Source: Branchiostoma floridae (lineage: Eukaryota > Chordata > Leptocardii > Amphioxiformes > Branchiostomatidae). Taken from it: a DNA stretch of 64,000 nt. Under the pieces are notes generated by a model that was not told the DNA's origin, did no database searches, and was given only the letters and a program-made list of their open reading frames with translations. The translations under genes were made by a program, and so were the position numbers. Position 1 is the stretch's first letter; every line of letters starts with the position of its first letter. Of the stretch, positions 27,901-64,000 are shown piece by piece. The DNA lies in NCBI RefSeq assembly GCF_000003815.2, contig NC_049993.1:18536127-18600126 (forward strand). The letters run 5' to 3'.

Positions 27901-30900
27901 TTTTAAACAACACAACATGAACATCCTAACTGTCGAGCACTGACTGGTAACAGGTCTGCTGGAAACTGGACAGCTTACAGAACACTACCTGCTCATATGT
28001 GAGGAAACAGCAAACATTACATCATTATTCAGAACACTTCCTGCTCATCTATGGGAAGGGAGGGCAATAAGCAAACATTTCATCATTACAACACAACATG
28101 CACATCTTCACTAACCATCTGTGATCAAAATAAACATCTCATCATAACAACTACACAACAGTACTGTTACATGCACATCCCTCCGGTCTCCCAGCAATGG
28201 AATGGTAACATGTCTGCTGGAAACTGGACAAACTTACAGAACACTACCTGCTCATCTGTGATCAAAATAAAACAACATCATTATCATCAATACAACAACA
28301 CAACATGAACATCATCACTCTCCAGCACCGACTGGTAACAGGTCTGCTGGAACCCAGAAAGCTTACAGAACACAACCTGCTCATCATTGCATTAGAACAC
28401 TGCCTACTTGTCAGAGTGGGGGGGGAACAAACATTTCATCATTACAACAACACAACCTGAACATCATCACTCTCCAGCACTGACTGGTAACAGGTCTGCT
28501 GGAACCCGGAAAGCTTACAGAACACAACCTGCTCATCATTGCATTAGAACACTGCCTACTTGTCAGAGTGGGGGGGGAACAAACATTTCATCATTACAAC
28601 AACACAACCTGAACATCATCACTCTCCAGCACTGACTGGTAACAGGTCTGCTGGAAACCAGACAGCTTACAGAACACTAAGGGACTTCCACTTAACATCC
28701 TTTCCGAAGAACGTCCGTAACCGAAGCTAGGTAGTCATTTTCACTGTGTGAAGCGAGGAAAGTTATGTTAAGTGCCTTTGATATGAGATATGGGGTGTTC
28801 TGAGTTGCTTTAACTGGGCTTTCACTGTGAAGTATACACAGTTGCACACAAAAAAAAGTAATGCTTTTTTTACTTATACTCTGAGACTTTTGTCTTCATT
28901 TTGTTAAAATGTTACTCCTTGTATTCCTGACAAACATTTGATAATTCCAAGGTTATTAAAGAGACTGAACTGCTAATACTACCAGATACATGACTTAGTA
29001 AGCTCCCTTTGGTCAACAATAAACTTGTACAAGCTTTAGTCATATGACATTGTTTATCTAATTGGACTGTTTTTAGTATTTGTCTATCAAACGCTCAGGG
29101 GGCTGAATGTTTGCGAGATAAAATAAGACCCAATCACCAACAAGAACAATTATTTGTCAGGGCCAAAGTTCATTGGCAACAGAACGCTGGGTGAGAACTT
29201 TGGGCGCACTTGCAGCTGTTTTGGGGACAAACTGTTTTAGGGACAAATTCCTGCTAATTCTTCTGTTGCTCCAGAGTGTAAAACACTTGTGAAATCATGG
29301 CGGCAGCAAGTACCAGTGCTGATGACTTTGATGACGAGTTCCTGACTTGCTCAGTTTGTCTGAGCTTGTATGAGGATCCAAAACTCCTGCCCTGTTTTCA
29401 CACCTTTTGTCGAAAGTGTTTGGAAGAATTTGCTAACAGTAGTGGAGGGATGAGGTTCAAGTGCCCTGAGTGCCGCTCTGATGTGGCTCTTCCAAGCCCA
29501 GCATTTTCAGGAGGTGTGAACAAACTTAAGAGTAACTTCTACATCAACAAACTGCTGGACTTCAGGAAGCTGAGACAAAGCAAGACTTCTCGTGTTCTGT
29601 GCCAGATGTGTGAGTCTCACATCCAAGCAGCGGCTGTGTGTGGGGACTGCGTAAAAATGTTGTGTAACAACTGTGTCACTGCACACAGGAACACAGAAGA
29701 ACTCCAACATCACAGCATCATCACCTTGTATGACCTTGAGAATCCCACCGCAAGATCACGGTATGCCCGACAGATCCACTGCCCAAAACACAAGGACCAG
29801 CGCATGACTTTCTACTGTGAACCTTGTGAGTGTTTGGTGTGCATATACTGTACTGTGGATGATCATCGAGCTGGTACAAATCATGATCCAAAGGAACTGG
29901 AGAAAGTAGCTCTAAGGTACAAGGCTTCAATAAAAAGTCAAATGAACAAAACTGAGGCAGTCATCTCTCAGATACAACAGACAGTGGAGAACCTTGACAG
30001 GGAACTTACAGCCACAGCAGAGAATTGTGACCAGGAAAAGAAAAATATCCAACAGCATTACAGAAACCTAATCTCCAAACTCCAGCAAGAAGAGCAGGAG
30101 ATGATCACCAAGGTGGACAGGGTTAAGAAGAACAGGAAAGATGAACTGATTTGTGTAAAACAAGAAACAAACAGAGAGTTGGATAAGACCACTGAAGGTC
30201 TTACATTCTGTCAAAATATCTTAGATCGTGACAACAAGACAGAAATTTTGTTCTTAAGGCGACAAATGCAAGAAAGGCTCAAGCAGCTGGCCTCAGAGCA
30301 AACAGGTAATAGAACTTTGGAAGGTCGTACAAGAGTGACCTTTGAACCCTGTAGTCTGTCCCAGGTTTCTGGGGGTTCCTTGTCAGTGTTTGCAGGGTTC
30401 AGTATTGAGGTAGAGGAGCCAGCAGTAGAGCGTCTGCCCTGCTCTGTCACAGTCACAACCAACACTGCAGATCTTACAGGTGGGGATGTTACACCACAGA
30501 TAGAGGTGACCTCACCACAGGGTAAAACCACCCTGATACAGACTACAGCACACAGTAGCCCCCCACTAGCTGCAGGGAAGGGACAAACCAGCAGAGTTAG
30601 AAGGGTCTGGTGTTCAGAGTGGAGACCTCAGGAGTCAGGGAAACACACACTGGGGGTCTGTATGGGGGGTAAGAAAGATCTTGGTTCTCTCACTGTAGAT
30701 GTGGGCAGTAACAACCCTGTACTGAGGTTTGGACAGGAGGGCAGCCAGCAGGGGCAGTTCGACGGGCCTGTAGGTGTAGCAGTCAGGGGGGACAGACTGT
30801 ATGTGGCTGATGCTTGGAACCAGCGTGTTCAGGTGTTTGATCTGAGTGGGAAGTTTTGTCATTCATTTCCAGTAAATCCTGGCCCTATAGGAATTGCAGT

Positions 30901-33900
30901 TCAGGCTGATGGCACCATAGTAATGACATCTGGGAAAGAAGTGAAGAAATTTTCCCCATCAGGAAAACTGCTGCACACATTTCCACTGGGTGAATATTGC
31001 ACACAGCTCTATGGCCTGGCAGTACAGAGGGATGGGAGGGTTGTTGTAGCTGATCCAGAAACACACAGCATCTTCCTGTTTGAGGCAGATGGGGCACTGG
31101 TGAAACAGGTGGGAGGGCAGGGGCAGGGGGAGGGGCAGTTTAATGGCCCATATTTTGTCTGTGTGGATAAAGAAGACAACATCATTGTGGCAGATAAACG
31201 TGATCACTGTGTTCAGGTGTTTGACAAGAATCTGAACTTTAAACACAAGTTTGGTCAGTTTGGCAGACAGCCACAGGGCATGTGGGGCCCAAGTGGGGTG
31301 TCAGCTGACAGCAGGGGGAACATAGTTCTGGCAAACATTGGGGGTGTAACTGATGGTGTTGTACATAGTGTGAAGCTTCAGGTGTTCTGCACAGACGGCA
31401 CCTGGGTATCAACCATTACCTGTGATGGGGACAAACTGAACAAACCCCATGGGGTGGCTGTGACAGAGGATGGACATGTGTTTGTAGCTGATTACCAAGA
31501 CAACTGTATCAAGAAGTACAGATACATGTAACAGTTTAAACTGAATATCCTAGGTCCAGGAACCCGTAATAGTGACCAATATTATCAAGGATATCTTTAG
31601 GATAGGAATAATTACTAATCAATTTAAAATGACTGCAAAAATTAATTGATGCTCGGAGTCTTACTTACAATGTACAAAGGACTGGAATTAGCTACATGAA
31701 TTATCATCACCATTCGTAGGTATAGAGGTACAGGTTATTTCCTAACAATCTGACTGAAGAGGATTTTAGAAAGATTTTTTAGAATTACTAAAATATTGAC
31801 TAAAAAGTGTTGAATGACCAGGTCAGCTTCTTTCATCTACACTTTACAACTGGATATAGTTTAGGAACAATCTGGTTGATTTTAACAAGTTTTGCAATCT
31901 TTCACTTACACATGTAACATATAGATATTGATGAATCAAGATTTAGTTTGATAAAACATGATAACATAATTATATCAAAAATTCATAGATACTTGACTGA
32001 ATGTATCAAATTCCAGTTTCAATCAACGTATTCAGCATTAAAAAAACTGCTTTAAATTTGCTATTGAAGAAATCAAGCTAGATGTGGAGAATGTGTATCT
32101 GATATAAACGTTTAATCTAGAAAAGGACTTGTCTTGAAGTTCATAACTCATTGTGTGTGCTATACATGTATAACACTTGATAAACTGACACGCCTTAAGG
32201 AAAAGTGTTCTTTTCTAAAGATGTATTAAATTAAAGCTTTGCATAAATATTACATGTAAGTCTGACAATGTAAAGTAATATTTTGTGATGGCATCGGACA
32301 ATGAATCATATTAAACCTGGGATGATATTGCATGTGGGCAATGAATCAGGAATCTCCTTTCAGACAAGATTTTAAAAAAAAGATAGTACCATAGATGTTC
32401 AATCTGCTTATGATTTGTGTTGTTGAGTGCAAAAAAGTTTCCAACTACTGAGCTTTTAAGCTTTACCAGTTGATGGACCAGACTGAATTGCTACACTGCT
32501 GTGTTGTTGCCTGTAAGTGTTTTTGTGACTTTGTAAACTCTACAATTAATTATATGACAGTTGCTGTTCCAGAGTCTACTAGCGCAAATTTGATTTAGCT
32601 TTCCATTATAGCCTTTTTCTTTGGCTACTTCTCCCCTACAGTAAATAAAATTATAAAAAAAATATACATATAATAATAATGTATGTATCATAATGCCATA
32701 TTCAAATGATCACCTTTAGTGGGAAGCTGATCAGCGATGATCTTCTTTGTTCTTCGGATGAACCATTTCTTCCTCAGGTTGCTCAGCACCTTGGCTTCTG
32801 TGTTAGAAAAAAAACAGCCTTTGGAAAAACATCTTGATGATAGTTACATGTTGCTTAGAATGCTTTTGCTCAATCATAATGTGTGCATGTATTATCGTAG
32901 TAAGTGAAAACTTGAACAAAAGAACACAATGCATTTTGATATTGAAACCAAACATACTCAATTCATGGATCCGATGGGTTTGTAGCAAAAGCAATTCAGG
33001 TATCCATCTTGTTACAAAAAGAAAACGACCACAACAAAAGCACAAAAACAACTTAATCAAAAAGAATAATGGTGCCCCTTACTTCTCCGAGCTTCAGCCA
33101 GCTGTCTTTTTGTGGAGTTCATCTTCTGTCCCTCCTCAATCGGCTTCACAAACTTGACCCTGAAGTCCTTGTCATCACCTAGGCAACCAGGGTTGGCCCT
33201 GATGAGAGACAGAGAGACTTAAGACAGATGTAGCAAAATGAATGAACCGCCTCACAGGCATGCGCATGTTGGTGAACAAGATGCTTCAGGAACAGTGGGT
33301 TTGTAGAAATCAGGCTCAGGAAATGGATTGGTCCACATCAGATTTGGTCTGCAGAATTTATTGGTCTGTGTGTGTGTGTTCACGTGTGTGTGTGTGTGTG
33401 TGTGTATACGTGTGTACATGTATGTGTGCCATGTGTATTTGTGTGTGTGTGTATGTGTTTGTACTTGAGTGTGTGCACACGTGTGTTTGTACATGTGTGC
33501 AGTTTTCATAAAATTATGTGTGTGTGTATGTGTGTGCGACCATGTGTATGTGTGTGTGCACATGCGTGAGTGGGTGCGTGCATGTATGTAAGTGTGTACA
33601 GATTCCTCACCAGTTGAGCACACACCACATCTCCATCAGGTTGTTCTGCAGTATCGTCCCAGTGAGCCCCACCCGACGACGGACCCTCAGCCGCCCCATC
33701 GCCTCGGTGATCTTTGCCTTCTTCTCCTTAATCTTGTGACACTCGTCCACAATCACAGCCGACCACTCAAACCGCACGGAGTTCATCTCATTCTAGTAAC
33801 ACAGTAGTAAATGCAAAATGCAATATGGAATCAGTGTAATTAAGACATTTACAAGCTGTTTCCGTATTAGAATCAAAACTGCAAAAACAAAAAATTTTAA

Positions 33901-42352: not shown

Positions 42353-44559
42353 ATGGCCGCGCCAGGATTCTGTCGAACGCTCTTCTCGTATACGTGGTTT
42401 CTTGTAAGCTGGACGTTTCAGGTGATCTTTCTGCGCATCCTTGGCGTCATTTCTCCAGCAAAGCAGCGACAGATTCTGGTTAAAGTTGCCAAGGCTACCC
42501 AGTTCTGGGACAGTCAACTCCAGTTTGACGACTATGCAGGTATTATGTCACGCTAGAATTTACAGTTATACAAGCATTGAGAGCTGTTGAGTGGTAACCG
42601 AACTTAACTCCGCTCGAGTTTGCCGACTATGCAGGTATTATGTCACGCTAGAATTTACAGTTATACAAACATTGAGAGCTGTTGAGTGGTAAACGAACTT
42701 AACTCTCTGTAATGTTATGGAAATATATGTAACAGATGTCATGCAAAAATGACAGTTACCAGTATATGATTAATGAATACAATGTTCCTCAATGTGTGAC
42801 CGTAGTTCAACGTTGCTTTGTTTGATTTGTGCGTGTGTATATACACACACTTTTCTAACCTTTATCGACGCACAGTTTTTGCTGTATATCATTCTACCAC
42901 ATCCAGCGAGGATAGCCTTTTGCCATACATTATCTGGTTTGTCTGCCTACAAGATAGTTAAAGTCGTTATATGAACGTATATTTGAACTTGGTAGACGTT
43001 CAGATCATTTGCACTAACGTATCTCTTAACAGAAGCTATATAACGACTTGTACTATTGTTTACTTCTGTTTGTTTTATCCAGACACCTTTCTGAGTTTCA
43101 CAGCTTATTTGGACGTGTGTTGGGCGGTGTGGCATGACGTCACAAGCGCCGTCAGGGTCGGGTCCCGCGCGCCCTTGTGTGACGTCATCGAACTGGAAAC
43201 GGGGACTTCACGTCATCTTTTAGAATTTGAAAATGCAGGTATGGACTTGATATTGTAATTGGTGTGTATGTGTAGAGAAAATGTCGTCTATTCACTACTG
43301 GAATACACAATATGTCCTATATTCGCACCTGGGGCAAATGCTGTCGTATTGAGGTCACCTGAGTTTATAGCGCCAAATGGCAGCCGCTCCAGGCTCTTGC
43401 GATTTAACCTCGCCTATTGTAAGCTCTTCGCAATTAAGCTATGATTTGATATATGTACACTGTACATTGAATTTAAGCAAATTATCGAGATCAGTTATTC
43501 AGTAACTGGATAAGAAGCGACATCGTGGTGTTTCTAAACCTAGCTAGGTTTTGTCTTTGGAGATCAGGGCTCTGCTGTGTATATCCTCGCGTGTCTACCT
43601 TTAGAGAAAAAGTGCGAGGTTTTAATCAAATACCTTTGATAATTGAATATCTATATTACAATATAATTGCATATGAATATTATCATATGAATATTTCTCC
43701 CTATCCCGTCAGGCCGTCCGCTGGTGTTGAACTGTGGCAGCTGCTCCTGACCGCCGTTCCTGGCCAAGCTGGCCGACTTCAAGCGCCTCGCGGCGGACTT
43801 TGAGCAAACTGCAGATTTCCTCACGGTAATTAAAGTTACGCCAGGCACGTTCAATTCATCCATCCATCCATCCGTCCGTCCATCAATCTATCCGTCCATT
43901 CATCCATCGCTTTTATCTTATTCAGTTACACGCACTCAGGTCACGTGACATAGGTTCTGGTCATTCCAACTTGAGGAGGATCAGAAGACTGGCGGAAAAC
44001 TTGTTGATATATAAGTGCTTTACGGAAATAGCGTGTTGAGTTGTCATGACATCATGGGAATTATATACTTAGTCTGGTATTCAATCCTATCATAGCTGTC
44101 AAGTCTCCTTTGCCCTCTTCCGCAAATATGATTTCGAATTAATTTCTTAAGGGTAGATAAAATCTTATGAAGATTTGGATATCATCGACAGATTTTCGTC
44201 GTTCATCTGCCTCTTTTATTTTCTCTTTATTTTTGCTGCAGGTTTACCTGGCTGAGGCGCATCCACCCAGTGGTTGGGCTCTAAAAAACAACATCGACAT
44301 CCCTCAACATCGTTCTCTCCAGGAACGCCTAGCGGCTGCCAGAAAACTGCAGCGTTACGATGACCACACCCCTTGCCCCATTGTAGTTGACACCATGGAC
44401 AACGCCGTGGCTAAGACCTACGCCTGTTATCCTGACCGTCTGTTTGTGATACTAGACGGTAGAGTGGCCTACAGGGGAGGCCTTGGGCCGGAGGGCTACC
44501 ATTTGGACGAGGTTCGCCACTGGCTACGAAACTTCAGTGGTATCGCTCGGAAAGAATAG
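42353..44559 (+). CDS. Iodothyronine deiodinase (selenoprotein), four exons, 257 aa with Sec at codon 127
   Basis: Removes iodine from thyroid hormones and related iodotyrosyl compounds; type II-like membrane protein with a thioredoxin-fold catalytic domain. Exons: 42353-42539, 43083-43238, 43713-43825, 44242-44559. All are GT/AG, phases 1, 1 and 0, total 774 nt. An N-terminal hydrophobic helix (YTWFLVSWTFQVIFLRILGV) is followed by VGSRAPLCDVIELETG. The active site is RPLVLNCGSCS-U-PPFLAKL, where U is the TGA at 43748-43750. The family's conserved VYLAEAHPPSGWA and TMDNAVAKTYACYPDRLFVI follow. Length and Sec position match vertebrate deiodinases (about 250 aa, Sec near 126). The ATG at 42353 (acATGgcc) is chosen because an in-frame GTG at 42326 is not a likely start. 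A conventional gene caller would split or truncate this gene at the TGA. Which deiodinase paralogue it is cannot be told here. Confidence 0.93.
42518..42707 (+). repeat. 95-bp tandem duplication across the deiodinase exon 1 donor
   Basis: 42522-42616 and 42617-42711 are nearly identical. Both contain GACTATGCAG|GTATTATGTC. The second copy therefore provides an identical 5' splice site at 42635, 95 bases downstream of the proper one at 42540. Confidence 0.9.
43748..43750 (+). other. In-frame TGA decoded as selenocysteine
   Basis: Exon 43713-43825 reads ...N-C-G-S-C-S-TGA-P-P-F-L-A-K-L. The TGA falls exactly on the catalytic selenocysteine of deiodinases. The frame continues open through the rest of the conserved domain, and a SECIS lies downstream. 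Confidence 0.93.
43855..43910. repeat. (CATC)n microsatellite
   Basis: CATCCATCCATC with CGTC variants, just after deiodinase exon 3. Confidence 0.85.
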
Positions 44560-49202: not shown

Positions 49203-49664
49203 TACAGATCCTCCTTTCAACTGATGTCACTGTTTCCTGGCTACCTAAAGGGAAGCAAGCCTCAGAAAGACAGCAAGAACAGGATAAGTAGATATCCTTT
49301 CCTTTTTATGTATCAGGATGGGGGTGTTTGGGTAACCTGAGCCAAACTCTACTTTGGTTTGCTCAATAAATGAGTTAAAAGTAGGGACCTTTTTGGAAAT
49401 AAAGTGCCTTGTTCCAAAGATCTTAAATTTCATCTGATTGAAATACTGGGGTTCTGGGATAGAGCTAGTCTAAGAATAGTGCTAAGACTTAGTAGTAAGC
49501 CGCACGCACTGCTGCTGTTCCTGAGCTAACGAAGGATGTCATCATCAGCATCGATGGACTACCAGAGAGAGAGAGGACAGAAATATGTAATATTATAGCT
49601 TTTTGATGACAATGTGTCTATGAATTTACCTCGTATGTGATTTCGATTTTCTTAGTCGGTCCCT

Positions 49665-50330
49665 TGGTCCCTCCTGTAAGTAAAAGGATGGACTTTGAAA
49701 GATGATGAAATTGACTTGTACCAGTGTTCTGAATGATTGCACCCGTCTTGTAAGAGAAAAAGCAGAACACTGACTCAGAATTGATTTGGTTTCATCCATC
49801 TTTAATTCTTCTTTACAACCATCTTGTAAGTGAAAAGGTGGAACTAGAATCAGAATACTTTCTTTTCATCCATCTTGTATGTGAGAAGACAGGTCTTAAG
49901 GCTTTTCTTTCGATCAAATTCATCCGTCCTGTAAGTAAAAGGATGGACTGAAATATTATGAAAGTTGAATCTGGTCTAGTTTTCTGAATGTTTGCACCCG
50001 TCTTGTAAGAGAAAAGGCAGAACACTGACTCAGAAATAATTTGGTTTATTCTTTACAACCATCTTGCAAGTGAAAAGGTGGAACTAGAATCAGAATACTT
50101 TCTTTTCATCCATCTTGTATGGAAGAAGATGGCTCTTAAGATTTTTCTTTCCATCGAATTTATACATCCTGTAAGTAAAAGGATAGACTAAAAGATGATG
50201 AAAGTTGTACCCGTGTTCTGAATGTTTGCTTGAATACTTTCTTTTCATCCATCTTATATGGGAAAAGATGGCTCTTAAGACTTTTCTTTCAATCAAATCC
50301 ATCCGTCTTGTATGTAATAAGAGGATGAGT
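49665..50330 (+). repeat. Array of short hairpins (CCATCTT-loop-AAGATGG), block 1
   Basis: About eleven units of about 23 bases, spaced roughly 50-75. Examples are 49822 (CCATCTT/AAGGTGG), 49924 (CCGTCCT/AGGATGG), 50114 and 50251 (both CCATCTT/AAGATGG). Loops mostly begin GTAAGT or GTATG. Stem changes are largely compatible (A-U, G-C, G-U). Confidence 0.75.
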
Positions 50331-51379
50331 AGCTATCATTGGAATTTAAGAATTGGACTGCTGAGTCGCGATTGCTCCAGAAGACACCCCCACCAAGAGG
50401 CTTCAACCACTCTACCATCATCACACATTGAATAAAGAATTAAATATTACACACTGAATAAAGATTCTCAATAACTTTCAATGCTTTTCTTTATTCCTCA
50501 ATAAAGATATTCCTTCAGTAATGCTAAATGACAGAAGATTGGAAAGAATAAAACCTTAAATGATTGAGTTTGTTAAGTTGAAAGGCAGTACTTTCACCTG
50601 CCTTTGGCTGGCTCTCTGGTGTTCACATGTACTTTGACTTAGACCAGGAAAGGTGAGTTAAAAACTAAATTATATCAGGAACTTAGTTAGTAGTTGAAGC
50701 GTGTGTGATCATTCAGAGAGCAAGCTCAGTTGCCAAATTCTTTGGGGGTGGGGTGACAGAAGCAAAATTCAAATTTGAAACATCTTTTTCAAACAGGATA
50801 ACAAAGTTGTGGATTTAATTCTTATCCACAAAAACTTTTATGATTTGCATAATGATGTAAATTATAAAGCTCATTAGTTAAGGACTACTTCTACGCTAGT
50901 TAAGGTAATCAATATTGTGTTAATTCTAATAATTTTTACCTAATTACAAGGCACACCCCAATTTTTAGCTGTAGTTGTATAAGGCCAAAGGACTTCTAAG
51001 TTCTGGTGAACAGAGAATTTCTTTAGCCTGACCTAATATCCTAAGTCTTAAAATTTTTCATTTGCATAATTGCTATAGGACTGTTGAAGTTCTACATCTT
51101 CGAGACAACAGCGAGCCACTACCCAGATGCCAGAGGTAAGAAATGCTTGCACTGCGCATGCGGCGTTGCGCTAATTTCTCTCCTCATACAAACTGCTTCT
51201 TTCCTCAATACCAACAAAGAGGGGGGTCCTTTTCAATGCCTACTAGTGTTAAGCTCTAAACCATGCTTTTTGTGTTTTTATGCCCCATGATGGGAAGGGA
51301 ACTTGGGTCCTTGGGAAATATGGGAATTCTTTTTTTGTTTTAATCTTGTGCACACACTGTGTAAGCTGTGTTGAGGTTG

Positions 51380-52265
51380 AAATAAAGAAACTGTGTCTGA
51401 ATACTGTGTGGTGTGAGTTACTCGTGATTACAATGTAGTTATACAATAGAATACAGACTTCTACGGAACTTTTACAGATATTTTTGTGACAATTTTCCAC
51501 ACACACACTAGATTGAAATAAAGAGACATTGTCTGAATACTGTGTGGTGTGAGTTACTTGCATTTAGTTATAAGATAATAAGACTTCTTTGAGATTCGCG
51601 ATTATAATCTTAAGAAATTTTGTGCAAGTTTTGGATTGTTTGTAAACTACAATGTTTGAAATAAAGAGTTAGGGTTTGAATACTGTGTGGTGTGAGTTAC
51701 TCACGATTAGAAATACGATAGAATAAGGACTTACAACACTTTTGCAAACCTTTTCGTGAAACTTTTCCACACACACTGTGCAAGCTGTATTGAGATCTTT
51801 ATTGAAATAAAAAGACATTGTCTGAATATTGTGTGGTGTGAGTTACTCGCAGTTTTTTTTTATAAGATAAGACTTCTTCGTGATTACAATCTTAAGATGT
51901 TTTTGTCAATTTTGGATTGTTTGTAAGATGCAATGTTTGAAATAAAGAGACAGAATGTGAATATTGTGTGGTGTGAGTTACTCGCGATTAGTTATAAGAG
52001 AGATTAAGGACTTCTACACAACTTTTAAAGACTTTTTTCACAGCCATTTTCCACACACAATGCACAAGCTGTATTGAGATCTGGATTAAAATAAAGAAAC
52101 ATTGTTTGAATACTGTGTGGTGTGAGTTACTCGCAGTTAGTTATAAGATAAGACTTCTTTGCGATTACAATCTTAAGATATTTTTGTAACAAATTTGGAT
52201 TGTCTGTAAGCTGCAATCTTTGAAATAAAGAGACAGAATCTGAATATTGTGTGGTGTGAGTTACT
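51380..52265 (+). repeat. Tandem AATAAA + GT-rich cassettes, block 1 (7 units)
   Basis: AATAAA lies at about 51383, 51517, 51660, 51807, 51944, 52089 and 52223, period about 140. Each is followed 20-25 bases later by CTGTGTGGTGTGAGTTACT or a close variant. This is the standard layout of a poly(A) signal plus GU-rich downstream element. Confidence 0.9.
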
Positions 52266-53329
52266 CGTGATTGGTTATAAGATAGGTTAAGGACTTCTTT
52301 GCAAGTTTTGGTGATCTTTTTGCACCGATTTTGCGGATGGAGCACACTTGACAGAAAGGTTTGTATCTTCCAGGTAAACACAATAAATTTTCTACGTTTC
52401 TTCTGATCTGAAAGTTTCCTAACTTTTTTGTAGTTTCTTTTATTTCAGGTGATTCCACGGAAGACGTCCGTTTCCTGGCTACCGGCAGGGCAAGCAGTAG
52501 GACCATGACAACAGAAGTCAAACACCAGTAAGGGATTCTTTTCTTACAGCTATCACAGATGTTGAATCACTGTAGTCTTCATAATCCCAGTAAACTGATA
52601 TATAGTCACTGTGATGGTTCGTGATAGCTTTACTGGTACTGTATAAAACAGTATGATGTACTAGTAGAACATATCTGCAGTATTATGAAGAGATTCATAC
52701 AGTCATGAAAAATGTAGTATTCTAAATGCTTTATTTTCTCTTGAAGCTTCTACCTGTGGTATAGGGTCAGTTGCTACTGGCAAATATTCCATGGCAAATG
52801 TTTGAATTGATATAGTTTGATCAATAATGATAGTCTAATCAATTCTTTATTCCCCTGAACAGAACCTTTCCCTGGATTGACGGCCCTGCCTCGAGGGTAC
52901 TTGTTCCACCATGCTGTGGACAACAGGAACTGAACCAGATAACGAACTCTTTATGTTACAATTTGTGTTAAAACTTTATAGGAGGTATAAACCAAATGTA
53001 AAGATAAGATAACAAGAAGTAAAGTAAAATATTCAAAATGCATTTGTTTAGTGTTCAAGATATTTGAGATTATAGGGTCAGCTATTGACAGCTGAGTATC
53101 GTGATGTCTTTTCTTAAACAAAATTATGTACTTCAAGAACATGACTTCACTTTAATCTATACTTGAAGTAATTTCTGGCAACCTTTCTGCTAAATTTTCT
53201 TGGACATTGTTGCGAATATTAACTCCTTTGTTTTCTGACTTTCTGCAGGCATGTTCACTGGACAGATGGCACCACCTCAAGGCTACTTGGAGGAGGATGC
53301 AGATTGGAGGCATCAGGAGATAGCATCTT

Positions 53330-53720
53330 ACTCTTTCTGTCTCCCTTCTTTCCCTTTGTCTCTTTGATAACATTTAATTTACTTCTTCAACAGTTACATT
53401 TCACTTACAGCTTGACGGGATTTGAACCCATGTCCTTGTGAACATACCGTCAGGTATTGCAGTTACTTCCTTCCTTCCTTCCTTTCTTTTTTCTTCTTGA
53501 TAAAATTGCTTCTTTAATAAAGACTTTCATCTCCTGCAGTCTGGGATCTCAACCTGCATACTCCTGAACAAGCAGGATTTGCACTTACACTGATACAATG
53601 TTACAGACAAAACAATTTTTCCTTCATTCACTTCCTGTCTCCCTTCTTTCTTCCCTATCTCTTCTTGATAACATTGCTTCCTCAACAGTTACAGTGACAA
53701 ATAATCCTTTAGATCCAGTG
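53330..53720 (+). repeat. Diverged tandem repeat with TTGATAACATT and TTCAACAG blocks
   Basis: 'tctttgataacattt', 'cttcttgataaaattg' and 'tcttcttgataacattg' recur near 53360, 53493 and 53662. Each is followed by CTTC/CCTC and a CAG (acceptor-like). Pyrimidine-rich throughout. Confidence 0.6.
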
Positions 53721-53949
53721 TATACATGTACAAATCAGTAAGCACAATCATGCTACAGCTTGGGAATCAAACCAACAACCTCTGGTATAACACAGGTTTC
53801 TAACTTGATCAGTTTATTTCAGTGTGACTCTGCTGAACAGGACTCCTAACAATCATCTGCCTTTGAGTACATGCCAGGAAACAATTATTAGTTTCTTTCA
53901 CTGTTTAGGATTTGAACAAAATCCTCAGGTAAAATACAGGTTTCTAACT

Positions 53950-54385
53950 TTCATTTCCATTCATTACAGCCTGACTGCAGATTCTGATACTATCACTTCT
54001 TTTTTCCCTTTCACAGCCTCACTAATAAGTACTTCCTTTCCCCTATTACAGCCTCACCGATAAGTAGTTCTCCCTACTACAGCCTAAAGGCTAAGTACTT
54101 TTTCCGAATTACAGCCTCACTGATAAGAATGTCTTTTCAGTCATATCACAGTGTTGCTGACAAGTACTTTCCCCTTATCACAGCCTAACTGATGAATACT
54201 TTTTTTTCCTTTTCCTTTTTACAGCCATATTGATAAGACCATTTTTCACCTATTGTTGTCTCATCGATAAGAACTTCTTCCTCTTTGTAGTCTAATGAAG
54301 AACTTTTTCCCTTTTATAGCATCACTGCTAAAAATCCTTTTATACCCTAACTGGTATATCATCCCCTTCCACAGCCTCATATGAA
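53950..54385 (+). repeat. Minisatellite of pyrimidine-tract + CAG + CCTCACTGATAAGTACTT units
   Basis: Roughly ten units of about 35-50 bases. Most have a T/C-rich tract ending (T)(T)ACAG or CACAG, then CCTCACTGATAAG. Each unit looks like a 3' splice site. No open frame. Confidence 0.75.
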
Positions 54386-55679
54386 TGCATGGGATTTTGA
54401 AGTCAAATATGGTAGATGATCCAAAATGATTTCATCATACCTCAGCAAGGATGCAAGAGTTACCAGGAATTCAGCACTAAGGACAGAAAGGAAATTCTTC
54501 TGCCTGTTAAGTTAAGACTGGTAAAGACTAAATATATTTTGCTTTTTCTAACGATCATACCCAACTCAAGAGGAACTAAGACAAACAGAGGAGTCTTTGT
54601 TTGCTTTATAAAGTTGTTTCTGCTTCATTCCCAGAGACTACATGGAAATATTGACCTCTGCATTCTATTGTTTCCTAGGTGTGACAATGCAGACTTGTGT
54701 GCTAGTGTTTCTTCCAGCAGTGCTCCAAGACAGTTAACTTAAATATTTTCTTTCAGATTTCTCTCCTTGTTTGAGTTCTAAAAGCCTATTTATTTTCAGT
54801 GATCTTACCCCCAGCTTTGTATCATGACCACACTTGAATGAAGGGCTGTCTTTGTCTATGTACCTGAGTTTAAGTTTCTGCAGGGAAAGTCTAACAAAGA
54901 CTGAAGGAAGACAAACAGCAGTGGTTCCTACACAAAGCAGAATAAGGCTCGGTCCACGAGTCTACTAGGTAAAGATTCTGTCTCATCCTTCCTATATTCC
55001 TTCTTCCTTTCATCCTACCCTACTCCAATATCTTTCTTCCTCCCTTTCTTTCTAACATTCACTCACTCCTTCAGAAAAGTAACTTAAGCTACAAATCTAA
55101 CTATCTTATTTAACATGTTCCTATAACATGCTTAACATCACATCCTTTAGGTTTGAAGTGTTTTTAAAAGGTGAGCTAATAGAAAATTGTTTTTCATGTG
55201 CTTTCAGGTGTGAATTTGGTGACGTCTGACCCTGATGCCATTGATGTTACTGTTTCCTGCCTACCTGAAGAGAGGCAAGCCTCAGAAAGACAAGCAAGAA
55301 CAGGATTAGTAATATCCTTTCTTTTTCATGTATTAGGGTGGGGGGTGTTTGGGGAACTCGAGTCAAACTCTACTTTGGTTTGGCTCAATAAATGAGTTAA
55401 AAGTAGGGAACATTTCGGAAATAATGTGCCTTGTAACAAAAATATTGAATAGCATTAGAAATAAAAGTACTGGGGTTCTGGGATAGACCTAGAATATTGC
55501 TAAGATGTAGTAGACTTAGTAGTAAGCTGCACGCACAGCCGCCATTCCTGAGCTAAAGGAGGATGTCATCATCAGCATCGATGCACCACCATAGAGAGAA
55601 AGAGAGATATTCAGTAGTTTGCGTATGACTATACTGTTTCTTTATGAATTTCTATTGCAACTTATTCTGTATTTCTAAG

Positions 55680-55985
55680 TCCAATTCTTGTAAGTGGAAA
55701 GATGGGACTTTGAAAGTGCTTCAAATGTTTGCAACCGTCTTGTAAGTGAAAAGGTGGAGCACTGACTGAGAAATAATTTTTTTACGTCCATCTTGAAGAA
55801 TTCTCTTGAACCCATCTTGTATGAAAGAAGATGGATCTGCATTGTAATGTTTTTATACCCATCTTGTAATGAAGGTGGCACACGGACATTATTGTGATGT
55901 TTTTCACCATCTTGTAATGGAGAAGATGGCAAAAGGATACTATTGTGATGTTTTTCCACCATCTTGTAATGAAGAAGATTGCACA
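55680..55985 (+). repeat. Array of short hairpins, block 2
   Basis: About six units of the same type. Near 55735 CCGTCTT pairs with AAGGTGG using two G-U pairs; near 55813, 55859 and 55908 CCATCTT pairs with AAGATGG or AAGGTGG; near 55961 one pair is lost. Loops are GTAAGTGA, GTATGAAAG, GTAATG and GTAATGGAG. Confidence 0.75.
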
Positions 55986-57114
55986 CGGATATTACAATCA
56001 AACTATTCAAAGACAATATCGTCACTGTTCAAGAACCGGACTCCTGAGAGACATTCCTGAGGATGTCCCCAGCAAGAGACTTCAACCACGCTACCATCAT
56101 TACACACTGAATAAAGAATCACACATTGAATAAAGAATGTCAATAACTTTCTATGCTCATCTTTATTCCTCAATAAAGATACTCCTTCCTTCACTCTTTG
56201 AATCCAGATATTCTTTCAATAAAGCCAAATGGCTGAATGCAACAGATAATATCGAAAAGAAAATCCACCTAAACGATTGAGTTTGTTAAGCTGCAAGGCA
56301 CTTCCACCTGCCTTTAGCTGGCTCTCTGGTGTTCACACGCACTTTGACTTAGACCAGGAAAGGTGAGTTAAAAATTAAATTAGACTAGGGACTTAGTTAG
56401 TAGTTGAAGTGTGTGTTGATCATTCAGAGAGCAAGCTCAGTTGCCAAATTCTTTGGGGGTGGGGTGACAGATAAGAAAATTCAAATTTGAAAGTTCTTTT
56501 TCAAACAAAATAACAGACAGAAAACAAAGTTGTGGATCTAATTCTTAGCCACAAAACTTTGATGTTTTGCATAATGATGTAACTTGATATGAAGCTTATT
56601 AGTTACAGACTAGTTCTTAGCTAGTTAAGCTAATTAACATTGTGTTAATTCTTATCATTTTCCTAATTACAAGGCACCCCAAATTTTAGCTGCTATAAGG
56701 CCAAAGGGCTTCTCAGTTATGGTGAACAGAGAATTTCTTTAGCCTGGCCTAAAATCGTAACATTGTGTTCATTTGCATAATTACAACAGGACTGCTGTTC
56801 TTTCTACATTTTTGAGACAACGGCGAGCCACCCGGATGCCAGAGGTAAGAAATGTTTGCACTGCACATGCGGCGTTGCTCTAACCACATAAGTAATTTCT
56901 CTCCTCATACAAACAGCTTCTTTCCTCAATACCAACAAAGAGGGGGGTCCTTTTCAATGCCTGCTAGTAGCATTTGGGGTTATTTCTAGGGCCAAACCAT
57001 GTTTTTTTCTGTTTTTACATCCCATGATGGGAAGGGAACTTGGGTCCTTGGGAAATGTGGGAAATCTTTTTTTGTTTTGATACTCTGCACTCACTGTGTA
57101 AGCTGTATCAACAT

Positions 57115-58085
57115 TGTAATAAAGTCAAAGAATCAGCATCTTAATACTGTGTGGTGTGAGTTACTCGTGGTTAGCAATAAGATAGATTAAGGACTTCTTT
57201 GCAACTTTTGCAAATCGTTGATAATTTTGGACACACAATTTTGGCAATAAAGAGGCAGTGTCCAAATACTGTGTGGTGTGAGTTACTCGCGATTAGTTAT
57301 AAGATAGAGTAAGGACCTCTTCGCGACTTCGCTTTCGTGAGGAACTTTTCATGCAAAATTGTCTGTCAAATGATTGAAATAAAGAGACAGCATCTGAATA
57401 CTGTGTGGTTTGAGTTACTTAATATATTAGCTACAAGGTAACGTAAGGACCTCTTTGTGATTTCTTGAGACCTTTTCATGGCAATTTTGAGGATTCTCTG
57501 TAAGCAACAATGATTCAAATAAAGAGAGAGTGTCTGAATACTGTGTGATCTGAGTTACTTTAAACATTAGTTATAAGGTAGAGTAAGGACTTCTTTGCGA
57601 TTTCTTTTTGTTTGTTTGCAAGCTGAGAGGTTTGAAATAAAGAGACAGAGTCTGAAAACTGTGGTGTGAGTTACTCGCAGTTAGTTATAACTTAAAGGTA
57701 GAGTAAGGACTTCTTCACAATTTCTTGAGACCGTCAGTTTGCAAGCTGACATGTTTGAAATAAAGAGACAGCGTCTGAAAACTGTGTGGTGTGAGTTACT
57801 CGCGGTTAGTTATAGGTTAGAGTAAGGACCTCTTTGCGATTGCCTTTTCGCGAGGACCTTTTCATGCCAAATTTGAGGATTGTTTGTAAACAGCAATGAT
57901 TGAAATAAAGAGACAGTGTCTGAATACTGTGTGGTCTGAGTTACTTACGTTAGTTATAAGATAGAGTAAGGACTTCTTCACAATTTCTTGAGACCTTTTT
58001 GTGCCAAATATGAGACATTTGTAAGCTGACATGTTTGAAATAAAGAGACAATGTCTGAATACTGTGTGGTGTGAGTTACTCGCGG
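57115..58085 (+). repeat. Tandem AATAAA + GT-rich cassettes, block 2 (8 units)
   Basis: AATAAA lies at about 57119, 57246, 57380, 57519, 57636, 57756, 57903 and 58041. Each is followed by 'ctgtgtggt.tgagttact' at the spacing seen in block 1. Confidence 0.9.
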
Positions 58086-58589
58086 TTAGTTATAAGTTAG
58101 AGTAAGGACTTTTGATGAGTTTTTCATGCCAATTTTGTGGAAGAGTCACAACTTCTTTGGGATGATGATGAAAAGTCAGGTTTGTATCTTCTAGGTAAAC
58201 ATGTAAGTATGATACTGCAAAATATTATAACATTTCCTTTACAGAAACTTCTCTAACATTTTCTGTAGTTTATTTTTACAGGTATCTCTATGGAAGCCAT
58301 CTGTATCCTGGCTACCATCAAAGCAGGTGTTAAGATCATGACAACAAAAATTAAGCAGTAGTAAGTGCTAAGTTCTTTACCCCGGTACTATCTCTCTCTC
58401 CCTGTACCTACATTTTTATACCCCTCCCTTCACCCTCTCTCTCATTCTCTACTTTGGAAATTCTCCCATGTAGCTATACTAATGCAAGTAAGGTCTGTTT
58501 TTTTTTTTGGGGGGGGGAGATTTCAAGTGTAATACTAGTTATATTTTTACCACTCACATTGTTGTAACAGTTGAATTCCTAATCTCTTC

Positions 58590-59430
58590 TGCATATACAT
58601 GTAGGGCCATTCCCTGCTTCGGATAGACGCTCCAGCCTTCAGGCTACCTGACGCAAGAAAGCCAGCAAAGTAGCCTTGGACAAGTCACAAAAAAAGATAA
58701 GCACTTTGTTTTAACTGAATTGAATTTGAATTCTGAATTGAAGCTAGAAATGATCTCTGAGTTACATGGACTAGAAAGCTGGTAATTTGGGGTGGGTAGG
58801 GTCCTTGAAGTCCTAGTGTTGGCATCAGTAATTTGTCACTTACATTGTTGTTGCATTCCTTGTTTTCTACACCAGAACCACTCCCTGGATAGATGCATCC
58901 ATGCTCCAGTACATATACCTGAAGTAAGAAAATCAAACCACACTTTGGACAAGTCTAAAAAAAAGATAAGTACTGTTTCTTATTCAACTTTGGAAAGTAG
59001 ATATGATACCTGAGTAAACTACTCTGTGTGGGTATCTGATTTTTCACTTACATCTTTTTGTTTCATCCCTCGTTTTCTGCATCAGGACCACTAGCTGGAT
59101 AGAACCCGCCTGCCTCGACGCTGCCTCAAGAAAAGATAAGCAATGGTCCTGAGTCTTAATTCAACTTTAGAAAGTAAATATTTTGATATGTAAACTAGTC
59201 TGCAAATTTTCAGAACATGTTTGTTTGTGTGTGTGTGTGTGTGTTGGGGGGGGGGGGGTGTCTGTGGATGAAAGGATGGTGTTTGATGATTCATGGAGTA
59301 TTGGGGGTTGATTTTTTACTTATATTTTTGTTCCATCCCTTGTTTTCTGCATCTGCAGCAAGACCTGACTCCCTGGGAAGTTGTCCCCTGCCTCAAGACT
59401 ATTTGAAGCAAGAAAATCAGTTCAGCTTAG
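58590..59430 (+). repeat. Four tandem diverged exon-like units
   Basis: Segments near 58605, 58873, 59086 and 59358 share 'cc(a/t)(c/t)tccctggatag', 'gcctgcctc', 'acctgaagcaagaaa' and 'ggacaagtc.caaaaa.gataag'. Each is preceded by 'cattgttttctgca(t)c(a)g'-like sequence, that is, an acceptor-like CAG. Period is about 210-270. A more distant relative lies at 52861-52930. Confidence 0.65.
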
Positions 59431-60204
59431 GACAAGTCTCAAAAAGAGATAAGTAACTGTAATGATATAATCGTAGAAACTAGAAAATGGTCTAATGTTG
59501 TGATAAGATATACATATAGTTTGCAATGACAGGTACACACAAAGATGCTTTCATCAGCTGTTGTAACCTTTATAATAATTCAGCACAGTATGTACAATTG
59601 TAACTTTGTTTTGCCTGCCCATAAGTTCTCAAAACCTTAACTCAGCTGTACCCACACAGAAGGCCTGGTTGGCTCTTGGCTACATAATCAAAGGAAGGAT
59701 GTCTTGCAGAGCGTTGCAATCAGAAGAAGTGTGCTGGCTACTAACTGAGGGAGGATACCAAATAAGGTAAGAGCTCATTAGCAAACCCAGTAGTTTGTAA
59801 ATAAATGTACAGGCCATTGCACCACGTTGTTATCACCATTTTCTTTCTAAAGATGCTTTTTGCCTCAATGGATGGCATTTCAGCACCATGTAGCTCGAGC
59901 TTTGAACAAATGATGATGACTGTCTGGCTGTAGGTCTTTCTTTCTCCCTCTATGCATGTGTGTGTGTTTGTGTGTGTGATGATGAATGATTATGAATGAT
60001 CATCTCCTTCAGACAGTGTGAACCCTTCAAAAGCTAGATTAAGGATTTGGCAGCCTTAAACATTTTTCAAGTCTCTTGTTTGTATTCTACTCAGGCCAGT
60101 AAAGACAACCAGGGGTGTTCCTGACTACATGAGTGCAGCAGGTCAACCCTGCAACTTGCAAGAAAGGCAGAAACCAGGAGAGCAGAGGGGAGAAGATGCT
60201 ACAA

Positions 60205-61160
60205 ACAGAAAAGAACTAGTATCACTCCTATCCTTTTTTGTCTCCACACTGCCAAAAAAAAATATTGAGAAGAAGGTCTGTTGTCTTCAAGTTGGCTATA
60301 TGAGTAAACTGACACCCTTAGGGATGGGTGCACCAAGTTGAAGATGCTTAAAAAAGGAAACAACTAGTTTCACTTCCATCCCTCTTTTGTCTTGGCAATT
60401 CCAAAGAAAAAACTTGTGTCATTGGTAATGTTTTACTTATGATATTTTATTTTCCTTTCCATTTATTTTTTTGGCTCAAGAATAGAACTAGTTTCACTAC
60501 ACTTGCACTATCTGTTTTGTCTTGTTTTGTCCTTTGTCCAAGAAAAGAACTAGTGTCACTCATTTTCTTCCTTTGGATTTATATATTTCATTTTGGCTTT
60601 GAACAAGAAAAGAACTAGTATCACTGATGTTGCTGCCTGGCAATGGTCTTGTCAATCTCAGAGGAGGACAGCAGTGCAGCTGTTCATCCCAATAGAGAGA
60701 GAGAGAAAGCATAAAAGAGCGGCAGGGAAAGAAGAGAACCACAGTCCCTCAGCTCATCCCTTTGCAGCAGCAGATCATCCCAGTGAAGCAAGAAGAGGCG
60801 GGGAGGGGAGATGATATGAAGATGGAAGAAGATAGAGAAGACACTGGGAAAAGAACTAGCTATCGTATCACTCTGAAAAGAACTAGCCATTGTTTCACTC
60901 TGAAAAGAGCTAGCTATTGTTTCACACTGAAAAGAACTAGCTCTTCTATCACACTGAAAAGAACTTGAGCTATCGTTTCACCCTTAAAAGCACTAGCTAT
61001 TGTATCACACTGAAAAGAACTATTGTATCACTGATACTTTCCTTTTTAATTTGCATCTATTTTGATTTACTTTTTCACTTTTCAATTTAGTTTTCATTTT
61101 GTATTGTTTTGGCTTGACTTTGCCTACGAAAAGAACTAGTTTCACTAGTAATGTTCAATT
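60205..61160 (+). repeat. AAAAGAACTAG...TCACT repeat family with a compact 27-bp array
   Basis: Dispersed units occur near 60205, 60362, 60482, 60545, 60605 and 61128. A tandem array of 27-bp units occupies about 60848-61030 ('gaaaagaactagc' then 'tatcgtatcactct'). The unit is a multiple of three, so one frame reads periodic TLKRTSYCF. Confidence 0.8.
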
Positions 61161-61400
61161 TTTTTCTAGATTTTTTTTTTTTGGTCTTGTATCACTATTA
61201 TTCTTGGCACTGGCAAAGAAGAGGATGGAAGAAAATCTGTGGTCTTGAAGTGGCTTTACAAAATAAACTGACACCCTTAGGGATGGGTGTGCCACCTTCA
61301 AGAATGCAGAAGATCAAGAGAAGATGACTGAAGAAGAGAAGATGCTGCAGAAATTAAAGAGCTTACATCACCTGTGTCCTGTCTTATCTTTCTTTAATTA

Positions 61401-61600
61401 CTCTCCAAGCAGAGGTTGGGCTCCGGCTGTTTTTTGAAGTGTTTTGGGGTGTTTTTATTACTCTGGCTTTTTATTTTGTGCTGTTTTCTTTATGGCTGCG
61501 CACATGAAGAAAACAATACAAAATAGAAAACCTGATAAAAAACACCTAAGAATACATCCAAACGACCGCAGCTGAACTTCTGATTGGACAGTACCATATA
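61401..61600. mobile_element. Foldback element 1 (CTCCAAGCAGAGGTT ends)
   Basis: It begins CTCTCCAAGCAGAGGTTGGG and its far end is 'gctgaacttctgattgga', an imperfect inverse. The interior also folds: 'tattttgtgctgttttctt' against 'aagaaaacaatacaaaata'. Confidence 0.7.
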
Positions 61601-61749
61601 AAAGCACATACCCAGAAATATCAAATAGCATGTTGGTTGAACAAATTAGGTGTTCAGAGAGAAATATTGCAATGTCGATTATTCTGACAAACAACTATTA
61701 GATGCCACAGATTATAATGGCATGTGCGTTACATCCTGGGTATGTGCTT

Positions 61750-62002
61750 ACCTTCTCTCCAAGCAGAGGTTCGGCTGTTGTTTTTTTAACGTGTTTTAGA
61801 CGTTCTTGTCGGGATTTCTATCTTGTACCATTTTCTTCATGTTCGTTGGCCATGTCTGGCCAGCGAATGGGAATAAAATGGTACAAAATAGAAATCTTGA
61901 CAAAGGTATCGGTATCGACTGGCTGTGGTTCAAGGTAAAGATTCAAGGTAAAGAAAACCGTTTAAAACACGTTAAACAGCCGAACTTCTGCTTGGAGGGA
62001 CG
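61750..62002. mobile_element. Foldback element 2 (CTCCAAGCAGAGGTT ends)
   Basis: It begins CTCTCCAAGCAGAGGTTCGG and ends GCCGAACTTCTGCTTGGAGG. The interior inverted blocks are 'atttctatcttgtaccattt' and 'aaatggtacaaaatagaaat', with TGGCCATGTCTGGCCA at the centre. About 250 bp, almost entirely self-complementary. Confidence 0.8.
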
Positions 62003-62006
62003 TATC

Positions 62007-62216
62007 TACTCTCCAAGCAGAGGTTTGGCTTCGGAAATTTTTTTACTTCTTTTTAGGCATTTTTATTTGGTTTCGTTTCTATTTTGTGCTGTTTTCTTTA
62101 TGTCTTCCAGCCAAGGAAGACATCAAGATAACAGCACAAAATATAGAGTCCGATTTTTAAGAAACGCCAAGAAATTTTTAAGCCAGAGCGCCGAACCTCT
62201 GCTTGGAGCTTACCTT
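62007..62216. mobile_element. Foldback element 3 (CTCCAAGCAGAGGTT ends)
   Basis: It begins CTCTCCAAGCAGAGGTTTGG and ends CCGAACCTCTGCTTGGAG. The interior arms are 'tattttgtgctgttttcttt' and 'ataacagcacaaaatatag', with 'gtcttccagccaaggaagac' at the centre. It directly follows element 2. Confidence 0.8.
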
Positions 62217-62285
62217 AATTGCCCCCTTTCCAAAAATATGCAGTTCTACAATACAACTGTCGCACTGTGGCTAGTCTCTGCAGAA

Positions 62286-62341
62286 ACATCCTCACACTCA
62301 GGGTTGACAATCACGGCTGTCAACCCTGAGTGTGAGGGTGT
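62286..62341. repeat. Inverted repeat, 24-bp arms, 8-base loop
   Basis: The left arm 62286-62309 and right arm 62318-62341 pair fully except for one G-T. The loop is ATCACGGC. It lies just after foldback element 3. Confidence 0.9.
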
Positions 62342-64000
62342 GCAGAAATAGATCAAGTCATTCCTTTCCCAAATTTCCCAATTTCAAAGTTAGGACTTAC
62401 TTTCCCCGTCTAAAAACGCCATCCCTAAATTACCACCCGGGTTGCAGTAATCTTCCTCAACAAACATTGACAGTCCCTACCTGACCGAAGATCTACCTTC
62501 TCTATCAGTATTCTATTGAGATTGAGATTCTCTAGAAACTCAGTACTGACTGAGATTTTGGCAAAGTTGCCTTTGTAAGTTTCACAAAATTTGTTCAAGT
62601 TGAAAGGTCAACGGCCTGTTCTACTACAAGTAAGGGGTGTGCATGATAGGCGAGACCATTCTGGCCAACGGGATGGTAATTGGAAAAATCGGACATTGGC
62701 GATAGTCAAACAAATATCTTTTACCTTTGCCAATTTTGTTCTGATTTCAGTAGCATTTGTACGTATGTAACGTTATCTGCAGACAAAATAAAGACCTTGA
62801 AATGACTAGATGGACCCCTGTTATAGTACTGACGGCTTGTTATAGGTCTTATAGTACTGCAGTGAAACGTACGGTTTTGATATATTTTTACTGTGAATTA
62901 AATGTATTCGTATGTTATTAGATATTTCTATTCGAAACTAAAACTCATTGAACTTGGTTCCAAATTAGAAGATTATGTGCTTTATCTGTGTTGATTGTGG
63001 AGCTCATTATTGTGGGAGCCGCGTTGGCATGTTGCATTTCGTTTCTCACCAAAATAATAAAAAGTTATTTGCAAAGTTTTTGCTTGTCCCTAGTGTTTAT
63101 TTTGAGCATTATTGTACACAAAACACAAGAAAAGAAACACTCGTTCTGCGTTTTGTCTCAAAAGCAGATCTGTCATGTTTTTTTAGAGAAATAGTATGCA
63201 AAAAGTAACGTTAGCTGATAAACTACATGAAAACTATATGAAATAGATTTGATACATTGATGTATGCCAATTACTGCAGTAAACGAATCTCTTTTAAAAC
63301 AAGGAGCTTTTATAAAAGCTCCTTGTTTAAAATGATTACGAAACGAGCAAAAAGTCGTAAGGGAATCTAGCAGATTCCATACACAGCACGTCTGCTTGAA
63401 CTAGATGTAGAATGAATAAAGTTCAGGGTAGCCCACGTCAATATGAAAGGTTACCTCAGGACATAACAGGTTTGCTCAATCGTAAACTGATGACGTCAGG
63501 GTCAACCTTAGGCGGATGTTTGTTACCATGAACGTTACATTGTACTTTTAGTGATAATGTAACCCTAAATCCTCAGAAAAACGGATAAGGTTTTTTTTGT
63601 GGTGGGGGGGGGGGGTATGTATATACGCGGAGATATTTTATCTTATATATCTTATATACGCGGACATATTTTATCTTATGGTTTGCATAAAAGTTCATCA
63701 AAGTTGGTAAATTGGGCGTGCAAGGATGTACAAAACATTTTACGTATAATCCCTCGTATCTGCTTGAAGTTTAAAGTTCATTTTAATACTCACCCTGGTT
63801 GATAAAGGGTAAGGTCAACCCGGTCCAAAGGTAAAGGTGATCACAGCACGAAATCTGGTATTTAAGCAAGCTTAAACTCAACGTAAACGCGACGTTTCTG
63901 CACCCTTTCCGCAACTTAACGACATCTATCCGCGAACGTAAAGATCCCCTTTAATGTTACCTTTACGTTGGCACTTATATGTACTTATATGCACTCCTCA
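62342..64000. other. Non-coding end of the window
   Basis: No gene is recognised. A perfect 32-bp palindrome lies at 63297-63328 (AAACAAGGAGCTTTTA and its inverse). There is a G-run near 63605-63615, and a short direct repeat 'tatacgcgga.atattttatc' at about 63622 and 63656. Confidence 0.5.
63297..63328. repeat. Perfect 32-bp palindrome
   Basis: AAACAAGGAGCTTTTA is followed immediately by TAAAAGCTCCTTGTTT. There is no loop, and no flanking terminator-type context is expected in a eukaryote. Confidence 0.95.

Follow-up and report, generated by a model that had tools for sequence, protein, structure and literature searches.

Tandem AATAAA/GT-rich units behind a conserved predicted splice site as candidate redundant polyadenylation sites in an amphioxus gene family

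Why should a stretch of amphioxus DNA carry, in two rows, fifteen copies of what looks like the end signal of a gene? The stretch, hereafter the window, comprises 64,000 nucleotides of Branchiostoma floridae (C15:18536127-18600126, C15 being contig NC_049993.1). Its plus strand holds seven tandem units in block A and eight in block B, each combining the hexamer AATAAA with a GT-rich element. An earlier note on this DNA had described these 7 + 8 units and had placed the GT-rich element at a set distance after the hexamer, and both descriptions stand. AATAAA is found in all 15 units (the block A and block B hexamers start at the first coordinates of units A1 to A7 and B1 to B8 in the table). Allowing at most three mismatches, TGTGTGGTGTGAGTTACT matches the window 15 times, always inside the blocks, against a mean of 0.10 and a maximum of 1 in shuffles; exact GTGTGGTGTGAG occurs in 11 of the 15 units. 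Measured start to start, AATAAA and TGTGTGG lie 24 bases apart in 13 of the 15 units, 22 in the unit at 57636 and 30 in that at 57118, and successive hexamers are spaced by 118-149 bp. A 10-mer with at least nine G or T follows 14 of the 15 array hexamers; counting both strands, the same is true of 9 of the 118 AATAAA elsewhere in the window. Conservation of the GT element is strong, and the upstream spacers are about 40% shared. Self-comparison shows that the blocks belong to a larger segment that is present twice, one block in each copy.

We consider it probable that the units are selected, redundant cleavage/polyadenylation sites, which would form an alternative 3'-end module competing with splicing in a non-coding RNA family. 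The larger segment was followed through the genome (513,431,437 bases in 431 contigs) with the 851 bp preceding array B as the query, and match counts given here are lower bounds. For amphioxus, PMC7269912 gives n = 19 chromosomes. The query matches at least 33 times, in two copies on C15, a single copy on C16, three tandem clusters on C18, and two short C11 pieces of 122 bases. Over the C15, C16 and C18 stretches, at least 20 long copies can be counted, with a spacing of about 5 kb on C18; an array is present in 13 of the 20 and absent from 7. An nhmmer search of the family stretches returned 82 unit hits, which correspond to 81 units in 13 arrays because one hit (C18c 6052) is merged with its neighbour; hits per array are 7, 8, 6, 5, 10, 5, 8, 3, 5, 8, 7 (6 merged), 4, and 6. 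One array of the C18a cluster has four consecutive 107-bp spacings, a regularity that shows recent expansion. Tandem arrays can be misassembled, and the joined family stretches contain 0 to 852 N per region.

Two other kinds of repeat were considered and rejected. A search with array B gave at least 23 matches, 23 of 23 of them at the C15, C16, and C18 family loci, and this confinement speaks against a mobile repeat, dispersed satellite, or transposon. A protein-coding repeat was rejected because unit spacings are mostly not multiples of 3 (15 of 69 are) and the exon sample lacks a common open frame. This sample, all that the exon search yielded, consists of four related exons from C18 of 113, 113, 114, and 118 nt, and 0 frames are open across all four; for this reason the family exons look non-coding, as apparently is the family.

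The C11 pieces (C11:19931450-19931571, L034, and C11:18653206-18653327, L035) resemble the pre-array region (window ~56309-56434). They lie 1.3 Mb apart in opposite orientation on one chromosome, and nhmmer found no array units in the 10 kb of C11 sequence covered.

Evolutionary rates within the units carry much of the argument. They were counted as parsimony changes per site on a FastTree tree of the 81 units, excluding columns of less than 80% occupancy, which left 98 of 252. AATAAA changes at 1.3 per site, TGTGTGGTGT at 1.6, TGAGTTACT at 3.3, the linker at 5.5, downstream sequence at 7.2, and upstream sequence at 9.9, and the slowest six-column windows of the alignment are TGTGTG (7 steps) and AATAAA (8 steps). 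The 16 core columns average 1.5 changes versus 7.1 in the 82 others (Mann-Whitney p 9e-8, with columns not fully independent); that is, hexamer and GT element evolve 4-5 times slower than the remaining columns. The earlier note had taken these two parts to be the best conserved of the unit. This holds only in part for the 15 window units, in which AATAAA is kept in 15/15 but TGAGTTACT forms the top stretch, and holds across the 81 family units, where the two parts prove slower than the rest. Its suggestion of an array selected around a processing signal is well supported by the same contrast in rates, which bespeaks purifying selection on that signal, and by the downstream model described below. 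The outcome that the note had named as refuting it, a hexamer and GT-rich part no better kept than the remaining unit, did not occur.

Of the 81 units, 79 have an exact AATAAA (a stricter count on raw hits gives 78 of 82), and the remaining two carry GATAAA and AATGAA, both accepted variant poly(A) signals. The nearest hexamer-to-GU distance is 24 in 56 of the 78 hexamer-bearing hits, with a range of 14-30. A consensus TA 21 bases after the hexamer start (T in 66/81, A in 72/81) is a possible cleavage dinucleotide. Four of the 82 hits are badly anchored (9-12 of 18 letters), with a slight effect on motif counts made at the level of hits. A profile restricted to sequence 3' of the GT element, and so blind to both hexamer and GT element, has 63 hits at E 1e-5 or better, of which 61 contain AATAAA, 62 a GT-rich run, and 60 both; at E 10, both are present in 75 of 86. 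As this model was trained on the same units, it removes the scoring bias and only partly the selection bias. The nearest relative of a unit lies in another array for 57 of the 81 and in its own array for 24, so the similarity of units is not mere local homogenisation.

The position of the arrays provides the second line of evidence. Splice sites were predicted in the region 48.4-62.5 kb with a vertebrate position weight matrix (PWM), and the splice argument rests on conservation among copies, not on single predictions. A predicted donor (5' splice site), GATGCCAGAG/GTAAG, precedes 13 of 13 arrays, with the first unit match 167-264 nt downstream and the first exact AATAAA 178-330 nt after the donor G across the array copies. 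GCCAGAGGTAAG, the predicted donor, is identical in all 20 long copies. Further upstream, the donor pattern GGAAAGGT[GA]AGTT occurs in 13/13 array copies and is also visible in the 7 array-less ones. The acceptor (3' splice site) predicted after the arrays can be aligned in the C16 and several C18 copies and differs in others. A G-rich element separates donor and array; a conserved G-quadruplex at this place was rejected, the pattern being found in just 4 of 13 copies.

The 7 array-less copies retain the donor and have an acceptor 55-56 nt after it. The best acceptor within 140 nt of the donor scores 14.2-14.3 in these copies versus 4.4-10.6 in the 13 related array copies. In most array-less copies, the sequence past the donor appears by eye to be a run of short exon-like repeats. 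Taken together, the constant upstream donor and the stronger acceptor of the array-less sisters point to competition between splicing and polyadenylation.

Sense AATAAA outside the arrays is, by eye, mainly grouped before each family copy. Second hexamer clusters, with AATAAAG every 19-46 bases, are located at 50431-50505 and 56110-56223, ~630-735 nt before the donor, and their seven AATAAA (50431, 50457, 50500, 56110, 56129, 56172, and 56218) have no GT-rich follower.

How might such an array work? The anatomy of the array units, read from their sequence, is that of cleavage/polyadenylation sites as outlined for human gene ends in PMC10072996: a hexamer, a possible UA, and a GU-rich element, with upstream UGUA weakly enriched here. 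Each unit would offer AAUAAA to CPSF and, after ~18 bases, a GU-rich element to CstF, and would be held by purifying selection. Rows of 3-10 such units directly past the constant donor in 13 copies would then provide an alternative 3' end with built-in redundancy. A transcript running past the donor would meet several sites in turn and would be cleaved, polyadenylated, and terminated unless splicing won first. Splicing would win in the sister copies that have a strong mini-intron acceptor but lack the row, and the RNA would run on into the short exons. The earlier note's alternatives, a termination buffer or the 3' end of a variable-length RNA, both fit the array. While the family, the arrays and their position, the rates, and the predicted acceptor difference are covered by sequence evidence, we infer the use of the sites, their competition with splicing, and redundancy as the purpose of the array.

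In PMC5499120, intronic AATAAA is reported as counter-selected in all 17 eukaryotic species surveyed, and U1 on a 5' splice site is described as an inhibitor of poly(A) sites close by in human, mouse, and fly. Because of the reported counter-selection, conserved rows of AATAAA behind a donor run against the rule (PMC5499120). A row of strong sites near the donor could overcome the suppression by U1.

As a more speculative extension, possible rather than probable, the clusters may be composed of "stop" copies (donor, weaker or lost acceptor, and 3-10 sites) and "go" copies (donor, strong mini-intron acceptor, a series of exons, and no AATAAA for 1.3 kb). The number of sites per row would set how complete termination is, and a cluster might thereby yield a fixed ratio of short to long non-coding RNA or read out the balance between U1 small nuclear ribonucleoprotein and cleavage. 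With array copies called stop and array-less copies go, the copies found in the three C18 clusters are ordered stop-go-stop-go-stop-stop; stop-stop-go-stop; and stop-go-go-go-go-stop-stop. The first and last copies found are stop copies in all three.

Several observations weigh against our reading. On the side of splicing, the PWM finds 23 donors on the plus strand and 18 on the minus strand, and 27 and 22 acceptors, respectively; with nearly as many sites on the opposite strand, single predictions are weak. The acceptor comparison and the C18 copy counts concern related copies, not independent events. AATAAA is absent from the 1300 bases past the donor in the 7 array-less copies versus 4-11 occurrences in array copies, but this absence is not significant (1.3 expected jointly, zero in 27% of shuffles) and was dropped as a separate proof. 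All ten C18 array copies retain an acceptor at 59-61 nt, with scores of 8.9-10.6, which weighs against a clean switch. On the side of polyadenylation, upstream UGUA is weakly enriched (43/79 array hexamers versus 43/118 other window hexamers, p 0.019), and mean distances of 0.23 within and 0.29 between arrays indicate some homogenisation. Finally, TGAGTTACT, which lies just 3' of the GT-rich element and is no part of a classical poly(A) site, is invariant in 9 of 9 columns and is the sole nine-column stretch without change among the 15 window units; family-wide, slower-than-average change is also seen in its final eight columns (3.75 changes per site) and in a second downstream block (4.9).

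These last two blocks are the reason to weigh a tandem repeat with no role in 3' processing, whose core would be kept for another purpose such as a protein-binding site in DNA or RNA. Poly(A) sites require neither an unchanged nine-column block nor a fairly conserved one further downstream. Family-wide, however, TGAGTTACT is retained exactly in 45 of 82 hits, a drift not shared by AATAAA (79/81) and the GU element, and the nearly fixed distance between hexamer and GU element fits cleavage sites. We regard this explanation as unlikely, though with a real minority chance. Somewhat less credit goes to the possibility that the arrays are ordinary gene 3' ends, formed by tandem duplication of a normal terminal poly(A) site with no competition from splicing. 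The arrays could be 3' untranslated regions (UTRs) and each copy its own unit, and the acceptor retained in the ten C18 array copies would place the array in a terminal exon. Set against this, each window array has beyond it a predicted acceptor (52449 and 58282) and sequence resembling an exon, and the array-less sisters retain the same donor; we judge this explanation improbable.

A row of small exons or 5' splice sites, reading GTGTG and then GTGAGT, was also considered. GGT/GTGAGT scores 6.1 on the donor PWM, but the variants in three window units score -2.4 to -4.6, the border GT is not invariant, and such a row does not fit a GTGAGT kept in only 45 of 82 hits (four of the 82 being badly anchored), which leaves this idea largely refuted and scarcely credible. 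A tandemly repeated structured RNA element is just as implausible, since RNAalifold scores the 15 units at -0.68 kcal/mol, with 6 weak pairs. What speaks for it is a single Rfam match below threshold (ceN53, E 3.3, 20.7 bits where 50 would be needed) touching a unit at 57891-57943. Rfam scans of the window and of 14 related loci gave no match at gathering score; 35 weaker matches fall in 48.5-63.0 kb, of which 30 coincide with the inverted repeats at 61.4-62.4 kb and a single one overlaps a unit. There are no tRNA genes in the 64-kb window. An snRNA 3' box and a histone U7-type 3' end were also weighed as readings and are not favoured.

Among known systems, tandem alternative polyadenylation usually draws on a small number of unrelated sites within a 3' UTR. 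Such UTRs likewise present several AAUAAA plus GU-rich sites in a row and can give RNAs of varied length; here, 3-10 homologous sites derive from one duplicated unit, their core evolves more slowly than their spacers, and they stand behind a constant donor in an apparently non-coding family. The tandem terminators of rRNA genes, transcribed by RNA polymerase I, are redundant stop signals in a row and offer an analogy of redundancy; as protein-bound DNA terminators of another polymerase, they are not relatives. In the D4Z4 macrosatellite, the presence of a poly(A) signal decides whether a stable RNA is made, from one signal located beyond the array. Tandem repeat and poly(A) signal are thus combined in both cases, but here nearly every small unit bears its own signal.

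Intronic polyadenylation, for which composite and skipped terminal exons are the types named in PMC10960005, is likewise a case, together with U1 telescripting (PMC5499120), in which the RNA may end at a poly(A) site past a donor when splicing or protection by U1 is outcompeted. In that setting AATAAA is reported as counter-selected (PMC5499120), while here predicted sites are multiplied and kept. Among the papers listed in searches of open-licence PubMed Central (PMC) for such arrays, for amphioxus alternative polyadenylation, and for Branchiostoma long non-coding RNA clusters, no title or beginning of an abstract describes a comparable array of poly(A) sites. A hexamer reported in PMC5499120 as counter-selected in introns is multiplied here behind a donor identical in 20/20 copies. 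If the sites work, the family would provide a natural series of 0, 3, 4, 5, 6, 7, 8, and 10 units behind one constant donor, allowing the effect of poly(A) site number on splicing and termination to be measured.

Table. Positions in the window of the array units, predicted splice sites, G-rich elements, and family copies
Feature	Positions	Strand	Basis
Unit A1, AATAAA to TGAGTTACT	51381..51422	+	motif search
Unit A2	51517..51558	+	motif search
Unit A3	51660..51701	+	motif search
Unit A4	51806..51847	+	motif search
Unit A5	51941..51982	+	motif search
Unit A6	52090..52131	+	motif search
Unit A7	52224..52265	+	motif search
Unit B1, linker 6 bases longer	57118..57165	+	motif search
Unit B2	57246..57287	+	motif search
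Unit B3, GTTTGAG (would-be splice site without GT)	57378..57419	+	motif search
Unit B4, ATCTGAG	57518..57559	+	motif search
Unit B5, linker 2 bases shorter	57636..57675	+	motif search
Unit B6	57759..57800	+	motif search
Unit B7, GTCTGAG	57904..57945	+	motif search
Unit B8	58039..58080	+	motif search
Predicted 5' splice site GGAAAG/GTGAGTT (junction after GGAAAG), copy A	50653..50661	+	PWM 12.0
Predicted 5' splice site GGAAAG/GTGAGTT (junction after GGAAAG), copy B	56363..56371	+	PWM, family copies
Predicted invariant 5' splice site GATGCCAGAG/GTAAG, copy A, 245 nt before first hexamer	51136..51144	+	PWM 10.3
Predicted 5' splice site GATGCCAGAG/GTAAG, copy B, 273 nt before first hexamer	56845..56853	+	PWM, family conservation
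Conserved G-rich element CCCATGATGGGAAGGGAACTTGGGTCCTTGGG between donor and array, copy A	51284..51315	+	alignment of 13 array copies
G-rich element CCCATGATGGGAAGGGAACTTGGGTCCTTGGG, copy B	57021..57052	+	alignment of 13 array copies
Predicted 3' splice site after array A (TTTTATTTCAG/GTGATT)	52431..52449	+	PWM 10.2, family alignment
Predicted 3' splice site after array B (TATTTTTACAG/GTATCT)	58264..58282	+	PWM 8.6, family alignment
Family copy A, approximate ends	49222..55240	+	self-comparison, profile
Family copy B, 3' end provisional	55242..60200	+	self-comparison, profile

Other repeats were observed in and around the two family copies. Several variants of a short inverted repeat, typified by CCATCTTGTAAGTGAAAAGGTGG, occur at 49670-50330 and 55680-55990; their loop resembles a 5' splice site (GTAAGT) or UGUA, and their stem changes look, by eye, partly compensating. 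The stretch 53980-54400 contains ~35 bp repeats that combine a pyrimidine tract with (T)ACAG and, in many cases, CCTCACTGATAAG, and that give a row of seven 3' splice-site-like scores of 9.3-13.7. Exon-like repeats at 58600-59460 end, by eye, in AGATAAG, a possible AT-type donor or GATA motif. A 27-bp repeat, GAAAAGAACTAGC..TCAC, is found in 60200-61160, with 6.4 tandem copies at 60848-61022 and scattered similar motifs seen by eye. The inverted repeats at 61399-62351 (for example, self-complementary stretches of 98 bases at 80% and 64 bases at 84%) have sub-threshold matches to miRNA families and are probably small hairpin-type mobile elements.

The remainder of the window includes an iodothyronine deiodinase exon at 44161-44559 (Pfam E 6e-35, with structure matches to type III and II deiodinases), a polycystin channel exon at 16514-17350, a RING/B-box/NHL (TRIM-NHL type) protein in a single 749-aa open frame at 29282-31531, and a helicase C-terminal exon on the minus strand at 25021-25428.

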